A stretch of DNA of 64,000 nt from Henriciella sp. GTDB lineage: Bacteria > Pseudomonadota > Alphaproteobacteria > Caulobacterales > Hyphomonadaceae. Within the stretch, counting starts at the first letter, position 1, and the number at the start of each line of letters is the position of its first letter. The position numbers were made by a program, and so were the translations under genes. This document shows positions 19,815-22,928 of this stretch, piece by piece. Below the pieces are notes generated by a model. That model was not told where the DNA came from. It made no database searches and was given only the letters and a program-made list of their open reading frames with translations. The stretch is taken from assembly GCA_030066975.1 (NCBI GenBank), contig JASJAO010000006.1, positions 124,001 to 188,000 of the forward strand, written 5' to 3'.

Positions 19815-22001
19815 ATGGCATTGTGCATCACGAACAGTCTTCGTTTTCTATGTCTCCTTGTGATTGTGGTGATGGCCATGGTGACCGCCAGCGCCAGCGA
19901 GGAGCGCCGCATCGCACTCGTCATCGGTAATGGCGCTTATCAGAATGTGCCCGCACTGCCCAATCCTGGGAATGACGCGGCTGATCTCGCCGAAGCGCTG
20001 ACGCTGGCGGGGTTTGAGGTGATCGAAGGCCGCGATCAGACTCATCAGGAGATGATGCAGACCATCCGGGAATTTGTCGAATTGCTGGACGGAGCTTCCA
20101 CGGGGTTCTTTTTCTATGCCGGGCATGGCCTGCAGGTGGACGGGCGCAACTATATGCTGCCGGTCGATACCGTTCTGCGTAACGAACAGGCACTGCAATT
20201 CGAAGCCGTCGACATGAACCTGGTTCTGGCCCAGATGGAGCGCGAGCCGAGGGTCAATGTCATCGTGCTTGATGCCTGCCGCGACAATCCGTTTGCGGCG
20301 TCTTTGCAGCGGTCGCTCTCAGGCGGCGGTTTGGCCCCGATGGAGACTGAGGCCGTCGGTACGCTGATCGTGTATTCGACCCAGCCTGGGGCCACAGCGG
20401 CTGATGGAACCGGGCGCAACAGCCCGTTCACGCATGCCTTCCTGCAGCACGCGAACACGCCGGGCCTTGAACTGCAGCAGATGATGCGCCGGGTGCGCGC
20501 CAGCGTGATTGATGAGACAGGCAATGCGCAGGTGCCGTGGGATCACTCGTCGCTGACGGGCGATGTGTTTTTGGTGCCACCGCCGGAAGGGGTCGACAGT
20601 GATGCCGCCGCCATCGCACCGCTGGAACTGAGCGATAGCCAGATCCAGCTGCAGCTCTGGAATGACGCGAAGAGCTCTCAGTCAATTGCCGAACTCACCG
20701 CCTTTGTTGAACAATACCCCGAAGGCCCATTCAGATCGGCGGCCGAGGCGCGCATTCGCGGTCTGGAGCTGGAGGCGCGCCAGTCCGGCGATACCGTCGC
20801 CGATGCGGTCAGTCGACAAGTCGCCTATGGCGTCGCAATCGAAGAGCCGAAGGAGCCCTACGAGTTCTACGCCAATGCGCGCGTCTATGAGCTGCGCGGG
20901 GATGCCGCGAATGCGGTGCGCATGTATGAGAAATATCTGACTTTCTCCCCGGACTATGTCGATCCGCACTATCAGTATCAGCGCTATCTGCGCGCCACGG
21001 AAGGACGAACGGCCGCGCGGGAAATCTATAATGAGATGAAATTTGACCGACCGGATGACCGCACCCTGCAATATGCGGCGGCGCTGTTGCAGAGCCCCGG
21101 TCAACGCAAGGTTCAGCTTGAAGCCTTTTTAGACCATCATCCGGATTTTGCCCCGGCGCTCTACGCTCTAAGTCTTGATTACTCGCAGCGACGACTTGGC
21201 GCCCAGACCACCGCGGACAAACGCCGCGAACGCGAATTGCTCGACCGGTTCATCGAACTGCATGAGCGCGGTGAGTATGTGAAATATTTCATCGATAAAC
21301 CCGCCGCGGAGACGGAGATCGAAGACGCTGAAAACCGCCTCGCGGCGCTGTCCGTGATGTCAGAGGAGGCGATGGAGACCCCGGTTTCGGTCAGCTTTAG
21401 CTATACAAATAGTGGGTTCTTAATCACCGCTTCGATCGCCGATCTCAGTTACGGCGAAGTGTCTTACAGGCTGCCAGGGGAAGCATTCACTTCACTGGGG
21501 TTTTTCGATTTTCAGGACTATCGCGGGCGTCTCGTTGCAAAGCGCTCTTTCGAACTTCCGATCGAGACAAAAGAGACAGAGATAGAGATCAAGTACCTTG
21601 ACTCCAATGGCATTGAGCAAGGCCCGTATTCCTTTCCATTCGACCCCGAGCCGGTTCTCTACGAAGCCGCCAAGTCCGGAATCTCAGGCAGCGAGCATCA
21701 GTGGATCGTCTATCAATATCAGGAAGCGGACGACGATGATCCCGCATATGTGAGCGTCATTTTTCCTGCGAGCTATTATCCATGCGCCTTGGAGAAGGTG
21801 ATGTATGCCATTGATAGTGATTTGCCGGATACGGAGCTCTCACTGAGTGTTTGCGAGCCTCTCAAGCCCAACCATGTTGATGCGGAAACAGTTATGGCCA
21901 ACTGGCTCCAAATCCCACCCGAGACCGGCTATCTCTCCCTGCAGGTCACCTACAAGGATGGCGAAGTGTCTGAGGTCAAACGCTATCCGGTAAAGTGGTG
22001 A
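19815..22001 (+). CDS. Secreted caspase-like (peptidase C14) protein, 728 aa
   Basis: A signal peptide (residues 8-27) precedes a caspase-fold p20-like domain (about 31-260). The His/Cys dyad is present: H104 in F-Y-A-G-H-G and C155 in L-D-A-C-R-D-N-P. The central part (about 275-500) is helical and TPR-like (Y-A-N-A-R-V-Y-E-L-R-G-D-A-A-N-A-V-R-M-Y-E-K-Y). The last 200 residues are beta-rich and aromatic, probably a binding domain. Bacterial orthocaspases of this kind usually cleave after Arg/Lys; here export to the periplasm or beyond is predicted. It ends 7 bp from the convergent RHH-PII gene. A second secreted caspase lies at 54763. Confidence 0.88.
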   Translation: MALCITNSLRFLCLLVIVVMAMVTASASEERRIALVIGNGAYQNVPALPNPGNDAADLAEALTLAGFEVIEGRDQTHQEMMQTIREFVELLDGASTGFFFYAGHGLQVDGRNYMLPVDTVLRNEQALQFEAVDMNLVLAQMEREPRVNVIVLDACRDNPFAASLQRSLSGGGLAPMETEAVGTLIVYSTQPGATAADGTGRNSPFTHAFLQHANTPGLELQQMMRRVRASVIDETGNAQVPWDHSSLTGDVFLVPPPEGVDSDAAAIAPLELSDSQIQLQLWNDAKSSQSIAELTAFVEQYPEGPFRSAAEARIRGLELEARQSGDTVADAVSRQVAYGVAIEEPKEPYEFYANARVYELRGDAANAVRMYEKYLTFSPDYVDPHYQYQRYLRATEGRTAAREIYNEMKFDRPDDRTLQYAAALLQSPGQRKVQLEAFLDHHPDFAPALYALSLDYSQRRLGAQTTADKRRERELLDRFIELHERGEYVKYFIDKPAAETEIEDAENRLAALSVMSEEAMETPVSVSFSYTNSGFLITASIADLSYGEVSYRLPGEAFTSLGFFDFQDYRGRLVAKRSFELPIETKETEIEIKYLDSNGIEQGPYSFPFDPEPVLYEAAKSGISGSEHQWIVYQYQEADDDDPAYVSVIFPASYYPCALEKVMYAIDSDLPDTELSLSVCEPLKPNHVDAETVMANWLQIPPETGYLSLQVTYKDGEVSEVKRYPVKW

Positions 22002-22008
22002 GGCGCGA

Positions 22009-22506
22009 CTAGCTCAGAGCATCGGTGTCGCGTTCACCGGTGCGGATGCGGATCACCTCATCCAGCGAGTGTACAAACAGTTTGCCGTCGCCGATTTTGC
22101 CGGTGCCGGCGATCTTACGGATCGTGTCCGTCACCTGGTTCAGAATGCCTTGCCCGACCGCGATTTCCAGGCGCAGTTTCGGCACTTCGACCGTTTCATA
22201 CTCAGCGCCGCGATAGATCTCGGTCTGGCCGCGCTGGCGACCAAAGCCTTTGACCTGTGTGACCGTGATGCCTTCGACGCCGAGATCGATCAGCGCTGTG
22301 CGGATCTCTTCATATTTGTGCGGCCGAACAACCGCTGTGATCATATGCATGGGGTGTTCCTTGTCATAACGCAGCCCGAGCTGCACCAGGCGTCGAATGG
22401 CTTCTGATCGTGACGGTAAATCGCCTTGGCCACGCCGCCATTCATCGACTGTTTTTGAAAAATCCTGTGAGGCCACAAGCTGAATTCGTTGATCGAGTTT
22501 ATCCAT
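22009..22506 (-). CDS. Ribbon-helix-helix domain fused to a nitrogen regulatory PII protein
   Basis: One uninterrupted frame of 165 residues. Residues 1-52 have the RHH form: a strand (R-I-Q-L-V-A), helix 1 (F-S-K-T-V-D-E-W-R-R) and helix 2 opening L-P-S-R-S-E-A-I-R-R-L-V-Q-L-G-L, as in CopG-type DNA-binding proteins. Residues 53-165 are a full PII: K-G-F-G-R-Q-R-G near the T-loop, the modifiable Tyr in R-G-A-E-Y, the B-loop T-G-K-I-G-D-G-K and C-terminal R-I-R-T-G-E. PII proteins sense ATP/ADP and 2-oxoglutarate, so DNA binding could be controlled by nitrogen or energy state. The start at 22506 has AGGAG only at a long 13-nt spacing. A second start at 22350 has its own ribosome binding site and would give normal 113-aa PII. 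No glnA or amtB is adjacent. Confidence 0.85.
   Translation of the reverse strand: MDKLDQRIQLVASQDFSKTVDEWRRGQGDLPSRSEAIRRLVQLGLRYDKEHPMHMITAVVRPHKYEEIRTALIDLGVEGITVTQVKGFGRQRGQTEIYRGAEYETVEVPKLRLEIAVGQGILNQVTDTIRKIAGTGKIGDGKLFVHSLDEVIRIRTGERDTDALS
22348..22362 (-). promoter_or_regulatory. Internal ribosome binding site and start for free PII
   Basis: Inside the fusion frame AAGGA (22362-22358) lies 7 nt before ATG 22350-22348, followed by a second in-frame ATG two codons on. Initiation here gives PII without the RHH domain. It is either a second translation product or the relic of two once-separate genes. Confidence 0.6.
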
Positions 22507-22576: not shown

Positions 22577-22605
22577 TTGACAAAATTACACACTTTGCGT
22601 ATATC
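22577..22605 (+). promoter_or_regulatory. Sigma70-type promoter for the YRG-repeat mini-protein
   Basis: TTGACA (22577-22582) and TATATC (22600-22605) are separated by exactly 17 bp, about 65 bp upstream of the ATG at 22671. It lies in the divergent region shared with the RHH-PII gene, so the RHH domain could act on it. Confidence 0.75.
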
Positions 22606-22670
22606 GCTCCTGTCACAGAACGGATCGCTGCCTGCACAGAAGCGTTCCAACCGCGCGAAAGGAGATCGCC

Positions 22671-22850
22671 ATGACCAAATTGATGTATCGCGGTGTCGCC
22701 TATGACACTGAGCAAAAGCCCGCGCCTACACTTGCAGAGCAAATGCGCAAAAAAGATCTGGTCTATCGCGGTATCGCGCATGACGGTGTGCGCCCGGTGG
22801 AAACGGCTCCGGCGTTTGAGCACGTCTATCGCGGCGTTCGCTTTATCTGA
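22671..22850 (+). CDS. DUF4278-like small protein with three YRG repeats
   Basis: A 59-residue protein with AAAGGAG 6 nt before the ATG. It contains three copies of a short motif, M-Y-R-G-V-A-Y, V-Y-R-G-I-A-H and V-Y-R-G-V-R-F, spaced about 25 residues apart. This resembles the DUF4278 family (Y-R-G-x-x-Y), small proteins of unknown role that usually have one or two such motifs. It is divergent from the RHH-PII gene, has a strong own promoter and a terminator, and so is probably well expressed as a single unit. Confidence 0.75.
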   Translation: MTKLMYRGVAYDTEQKPAPTLAEQMRKKDLVYRGIAHDGVRPVETAPAFEHVYRGVRFI

Positions 22851-22897: not shown

Positions 22898-22928
22898 AAG
22901 GCTGCCCTGTCCTGGGCAGCCTTTTTGT
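22898..22928 (+). terminator. Rho-independent terminator of the YRG-repeat gene
   Basis: AAGGCTGCCC (22898-22907) pairs perfectly with GGGCAGCCTT (22914-22923), loop of 6 nt, followed by T residues. Confidence 0.88.

Follow-up and report, generated by a model that had tools for sequence, protein, structure and literature searches.

A PII signal protein carrying a ribbon-helix-helix-like domain in Henriciella, a probable one-component repressor of DUF4278 genes

In Henriciella sp., a single gene joins an N-terminal ribbon-helix-helix (RHH)-like domain to a complete PII signal protein. In comparisons across genomes this fusion goes together with a 16-bp operator-like site and a family of small DUF4278 genes. 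We consider it likely that the fusion is a one-component transcription factor, that is, a PII-sensing repressor of DUF4278 genes and probably also of itself. PII proteins are among the most studied and widespread of signal proteins, and the canonical ones are known for acting by binding partner proteins. A search of open-licence PMC papers (titles and the beginnings of abstracts) found no description of an RHH-PII fusion.

The gene lies at 22009..22506 on the minus strand of the window, by which we mean the whole 64,000-nucleotide stretch that was analysed. Its frame starts with an ATG at 22506, ends with a stop codon at 22009-22011, contains no internal stop and encodes 165 residues; its assignment rests on this single frame and on full-length relatives. 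Residues 53-165 (22012..22350, minus strand) form the PII domain: residues 53-158 match Pfam PF00543 (E 2.3e-23, 82.9 bits against a cut-off of 25), residues 53-164 match the NCBIfam P-II model (E 7.8e-39), and the nearest PDB chains are PII proteins. The T-loop tyrosine (Y103, corresponding to PII Y51), the B-loop TGKIGDGK and the C-terminal RIRTGE are all present, and the motifs presumed to serve ATP and 2-oxoglutarate are retained. The NCBIfam GlnB and GlnK equivalog models give 132.9 and 126.1 bits, below their cut-offs of 181 and 202. By that equivalog standard, the sensor part is a PII, yet neither GlnB nor GlnK.

Residues 1-50 (22357..22506, minus strand) are connected to the PII domain by a short linker. 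The Pfam RHH_1 model scores 14.1 bits on the whole protein and 16.9 bits on the isolated domain (E 0.006), short of its cut-off of 20.5. However, a profile built from the fusion's own RHH domain finds short RHH-like proteins in further genomes, one of which exceeds the RHH_1 cut-off with 22.6 bits. A separate profile comparison used three proteins retrieved by that same profile and is not independent of it. Given the RHH_1 scores, we grade the RHH assignment of this putative DNA-binding domain as likely, not proven. NikR models match the N-terminus at E 0.02-0.05 (14.8 and 13.8 bits against equivalog cut-offs of 83 and 175), and the C-terminal part of the fusion is PII and not the metal-binding domain of NikR. 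No RHH chain was found among the PDB matches of the RHH profile; the eight weak matches (beta-propeller/WD-repeat proteins and a lipase) were judged to be chance. The sequence-only reading from which this work started, a single frame holding an RHH domain and a full PII with its T-loop tyrosine, B-loop and C-terminal motif, is therefore confirmed, its RHH part as a likely domain below the curated cut-off.

It is very unlikely, in our estimate, that the protein is a PII of the usual kind, with an N-terminal extension used for oligomerisation or for contacts with proteins instead of DNA. The low RHH_1 score is what such an explanation has in its favour. The strand and helix residues of the domain are strongly conserved, the strand DQRIQLVAS being invariant in 10/10 aligned members; the short relatives are RHH-like, one of them in what we read as a phage-like neighbourhood; and the distribution of the operator-like site described below matches that of the fusion, all of which speak against a mere extension.

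The phage-like neighbourhood is that of the nearest short RHH-domain relative (G499:C1:365757-368903), which by our reading sits among several small RHH-like ORFs and a phage-type regulator. PHROGs likewise gives a phage transcriptional repressor (E 0.002), and on both counts the domain may plausibly stem from a repressor of phage type. The possibility that the fusion itself travels as phage cargo was considered and dropped, as scanning viral contigs for two peptide patterns turned up no relative that could be confirmed. No PII gene was found next to the other RHH-like matches in 17 loci of 2.5-3.1 kb each, and a GDGK in one of these loci (L064) is a chance occurrence, not a PII.

The sequence-only reading had proposed to look for N-terminal RHH domains on the PII proteins of related genomes, and such fusions were found in the window's own family, in families f54 and f14 and in a Parvibaculum MAG. 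Within the genus, 4/29 genomes have the full-length fusion, the three copies outside the window being 76-83% identical to it (76-82% when compared over the full length); the remaining 25/29 align only from query residue 26 or later, and these matches are their ordinary PII genes. In the family, 27/105 genomes from six genera carry the fusion, one of them (G077) with an altered C-terminal frame; the search matched 31/105 genomes, and G002, G028, G048 and G063 were excluded as weak partial matches. Among 299 genomes sampled from the order, 36 match the RHH profile, of which 11 do so strongly (E<1e-30) and all belong to the window's own family, the other 25 being weaker (E 4e-10 or worse). A class sample of 385 genomes yielded the fusion in one f14 genome and four f54 genomes; its 11 matches at E<=1e-9 comprise the window's own protein, these five fusions, the short RHH gene of G499 and four other RHH-like matches, two of which are located close to contig ends. 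In f54, a distant family with small genomes, the fusion is present in 14/18 genomes and in 6/6 of the better assemblies. Finally, a scan of contigs from named organisms, whose second pattern was a general PII motif and which is not a census, gave at least one full-length fusion (the Parvibaculum MAG) among the 80 loci listed. Its fusion branches with the f14 copy, and thus the MAG may belong to family f14.

The 33 loci that were compared (the window's own plus 32 more, which cover six genera of its family, f54, f14 and Parvibaculum) all place the PII methionine 48 residues after D5. There is practically no chance that a sequencing or assembly error fused two genes here, because the frame and spacing of the junction are identical in all 33 loci, 32 of which come from other genomes. 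Neither of the two outcomes that the sequence-only reading had named as fatal to it, a lost stop codon between the parts or separate genes in related genomes, came about; the relatives retain a single frame. An error would find nothing in its favour in the window itself, although one relative does have a changed C-terminal frame: in locus L047 (G077) the frame shifts near the B-loop and leaves an open frame of 150 codons, which reflects an error of assembly or else a defective copy.

In a tree, the PII domains of 29 fusions are split from 111 other PII sequences by one branch with support 100/99, in an alignment of few columns, with the bootstrap unsettled and a long-branch warning; L047 was omitted for its changed frame and near-copies were entered once. 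The window's genome has a further PII ahead of what we read as a glutamine-synthetase-like gene, and a second PII. Hence, the fusion is an additional PII and not a replacement for the ordinary one. A more distant PII relative in the window's genome (L004, G000:C11:91093-91377) lies beside a transporter-like membrane protein, by our reading possibly an SbtA/SbtB-like pair.

The fusion gene probably yields free PII as well, from a second start within the same mRNA. As the sequence-only reading had pointed out, a Shine-Dalgarno-like AAGGA (22358..22362, minus strand) precedes an internal ATG (22348..22350, minus strand) that would begin a free PII of 113 residues, and the comparison supports this start. 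The methionine at PII position 1 is invariant in 33/33 fusions while the linker before it is variable, and an SD-like core of 4-5 bases lies upstream of it in 30/33. Furthermore, codon 49, which forms the core and encodes K, R, E or Q, ends in G in 27/27 copies. In the rest of the fusion genes, G is the last letter of 53% of the Glu codons, 67% of the Lys codons and 88% of the Gln codons; the count covers 27 distinct copies from the window's own family (f1), which are related and so not independent.

Divergent to the fusion, on the plus strand at 22671..22850, lies a gene for a 59-residue DUF4278 protein with three YRG motifs. It scores 30.7 bits against Pfam PF14105 (gathering score 25.3), with the domain spanning residues 2-57, and 13/13 YRG proteins match DUF4278 at E<=0.1. 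Because DUF4278 leaves no space for it, the protein has no IF7-like C-terminal part and by that feature would count as neither IF7 nor IF17. An AGGAG resembling a Shine-Dalgarno sequence (22660..22664, plus strand) precedes the gene, and a terminator-like hairpin follows it (22898..22923, plus strand), one of three such sites in the stretch where shuffles gave 1.0. On the other side of the fusion gene, a caspase-domain (Peptidase_C14) protein of 728 residues is encoded convergently at 19815-22001 on the plus strand. No glutamine riboswitch was found between 21500 and 23500 of the window, where the two matches below the gathering score are to unrelated families.

The promoter of the DUF4278 gene (22577..22605, plus strand) is sigma-70-like: TTGACA, 17 bp and TATATC, the latter with 4/6 consensus letters. 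A consensus promoter scan, which demands T as the last letter of the -10 hexamer, left it unlisted. Between the two divergent genes, at 22577..22592, lies the operator-like site, TGTGTAATTTTGTCAA on the minus strand and TTGACAAAATTACACA on the plus strand, which covers the -35 hexamer and part of the spacer; its form conserved in the genus is TGTGTAANTTTGTCAA. We compared 20 such promoters (18 from the family, that of Parvibaculum and that of G662). The start codon is 57-108 bp past the edge of the site in 20/20, and TTGACA lies within the site in 18/20, TTGAC having formed part of the pattern used to collect these promoters. The hexamer 17 bp further on has at least 4/6 letters of TATAAT in 13/20 and 3/6 in the rest. 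This placement relative to -35 and -10 suits a repressor.

Across genomes, the site goes together with the fusion and the target family. At up to one mismatch, the site occurs once, and exactly, in each of the four fusion genomes of the genus and in 0/25 genomes lacking the fusion, although a reversed-pattern control gave six matches against the four of the real pattern. Across the 105 genomes of the family there are 26 sites at up to one mismatch, against 11 for the reversed control. All 16 exact sites are in genomes with the fusion (11/27, versus 0/78 without it; Fisher 5e-8, with relatedness ignored). A triple-YRG ORF follows 14 of them and a diverged relative follows each of the remaining two, recognized by the family profile in G084 (E 9e-5) and by eye in G082. 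Of the ten one-mismatch sites, five are in four fusion-less genomes, none of them at a YRG gene, and the five in fusion genomes include one at a clear YRG gene, one at a diverged member (by eye) and three at none. Genus g7 has its fusion elsewhere in the genome, yet in 6/6 of its genomes with exact sites these sites stand at genes of the YRG family, and each genome has two such sites if the one-mismatch site of G080 is counted. In f54, TGTGTAA lies 38-62 bp before the start of 9/9 first YRG genes with a readable upstream, and three of these nine sites continue as a better palindrome, TGTGTAA-N-TTATACA.

The fusion genes themselves have the motif. TGTGTAA is found within 200 bp upstream of the fusion start in 29/33 loci (shuffled mean 0.5), the four exceptions all being in f54. 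In genus g10, a variant derived from the fusion upstreams, TGTGTAASTTGCTA, occurs once each in 9/15 genomes searched, only at the fusion. These sites upstream of the fusion fit autoregulation.

Taken together, these distributions support, as distinct from show, that the fusion acts directly on DNA through the conserved operator-like site at its own upstream and at DUF4278 promoters. The site and the regulator are linked by co-occurrence, and a different regulator could own the site. We regard it as quite unlikely that such a regulator governs the fusion together with the DUF4278 genes, with the RHH domain directed at other targets or no longer able to bind DNA. The 13 fusion genomes of g10, none of which has a YRG match, would fit it, as would the nature of the link; yet none of the 78 family genomes without the fusion has an exact site, DQRIQLVAS is as invariant as expected for a DNA-reading strand, and the fusion retains a variant site in genomes for which no target gene turned up.

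By profile, 16/27 family fusion genomes have no credible YRG match, one of which (G083) has a diverged member by eye; a weak match in G077 (E 0.007) was dropped for having a single YRG only. Of the 18 YRG matches in fusion genomes, 2 lack the site. In f54, a YRG gene lies within 1.5 kb of the fusion in 10/14 loci and none lies within 1.5 kb in 4/14, and G650 has a YRG gene with no fusion match and no TGTGTAA in the locus. Three of the four fusion/YRG pairs of the genus (L006, L007 and L008, not the window's) adjoin what we read as a truB-like gene. In g7 the same holds for two or more YRG genes that are unlinked to the fusion (L191, L203), a pattern suggestive of a later relocation of the fusion. 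By our reading, a response-regulator-like protein is divergent to the fusion in four loci of genera g7, g8 and g10 (L042, L058, L056, L040).

For the one-component repressor that we favour, the following course of events would apply. RHH pairs from PII trimers would bind the site and block RNA polymerase, repressing the DUF4278 gene and also the fusion, through a site that is shared or its own. The affinity for DNA would be set by the ATP/ADP and 2-oxoglutarate that PII binds, and nitrogen status would thereby decide when DUF4278 proteins are made, most likely under excess as in cyanobacteria; this direction, with repression when nitrogen is limiting and release when it is in excess, is guessed from the analogy. 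The DUF4278 proteins could then act on glutamine synthetase or another nitrogen target, and the second start within the gene would supply free PII from the fusion mRNA.

Alternatively, the fusion might bind the site while its PII part acts only through partners such as AmtB, GlnD or GlnE, either as a tether that recruits PII or these partners to DNA or as a sink, so that ligands do not set DNA affinity. Partner binding likely persists, as the T-loop tyrosine and the other PII motifs are kept, and the short linker between the domains would suit a tether too. We nevertheless hold this to be unlikely, as the motifs presumed to serve ATP and 2-oxoglutarate are kept as well and would be needless for a mere tether.

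PII forms trimers, whereas RHH domains function in pairs. An elaboration of the ligand-responsive repressor, which we find doubtful, has RHH-PII and free PII forming 2:1 trimers with one RHH dimer each, which read 2-oxoglutarate and ATP/ADP at DUF4278 promoters, the YRG proteins being possible T-loop mimics on PII targets or glutamine synthetase. If true, the 2:1 mixed trimer would reconcile a sensor of three chains with a DNA-binding domain of two. As for mimicry, the position equivalent to PII Tyr51 is occupied by Y, H or F in the middle YRG motif of 14/16 sequences, in the first motif of 5/16 and in the third of 6/16; the resemblance to the T-loop YRGAEY may be chance.

What is described for DUF4278 in cyanobacteria bears on the role of the target. 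According to PMC6316151, DUF4278 is the N-terminal part of IF17, a small glutamine-synthetase inactivating factor, and glutamine-riboswitch aptamers mainly accompany DUF4278 genes. The same paper reports that a 7-kDa DUF4278 protein of Prochlorococcus is boosted under nitrogen excess, and that the N-terminal part of IF17 is dispensable for function, yet promotes stability (PMC6316151). Given this dispensability, inhibition of glutamine synthetase by the 59-residue protein is only a lead. What carries over from cyanobacteria is that nitrogen status governs the DUF4278 family there, and would do so here through a sensor of unrelated type.

If PII carries a DNA-binding domain, it would couple nitrogen and energy status directly to promoters, as a switch with a short operator and a nearly dedicated target family. 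Nitrogen control of DUF4278 would then exist in two phyla through sensors that are unrelated to each other, the glutamine riboswitch in cyanobacteria and PII-RHH here, and control by RHH-PII, if true, would be the protein-based counterpart of the cyanobacterial riboswitch. The finding gives a handle on the function of DUF4278 proteins, and RHH-PII would offer a natural design for a 2-oxoglutarate biosensor.

Among known systems, the fusion resembles GlnB and GlnK in having a complete PII domain that includes the T-, B- and C-loop motifs; it differs in its N-terminal RHH-like domain and in its branch separate from the 111 other PII sequences, and whereas canonical PII acts through protein binding, the fusion would bind DNA. 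NikR has the same order of RHH and ferredoxin-like sensor, and matches the N-terminus weakly; however, its sensor is a metal-binding, ACT-like tetramer, while the PII of the fusion would read ATP/ADP and 2-oxoglutarate. The N-terminus of cyanobacterial gifB/IF17 and the PMM1846-type proteins, under glutamine riboswitches, are likewise DUF4278 effectors subject to a nitrogen-status sensor (PMC6316151). There the sensor is an RNA, with NtcA acting on transcription, in contrast to a PII-RHH protein here, and IF17 has its IF7-like part separate from the DUF4278 portion. Finally, the PII-PipX-NtcA axis of cyanobacteria also has promoter activity decided by the state of PII; there PII acts through a co-activator and a separate regulator (PMC6316151), whereas the fusion would combine the sensor and the DNA-binding part in one chain.
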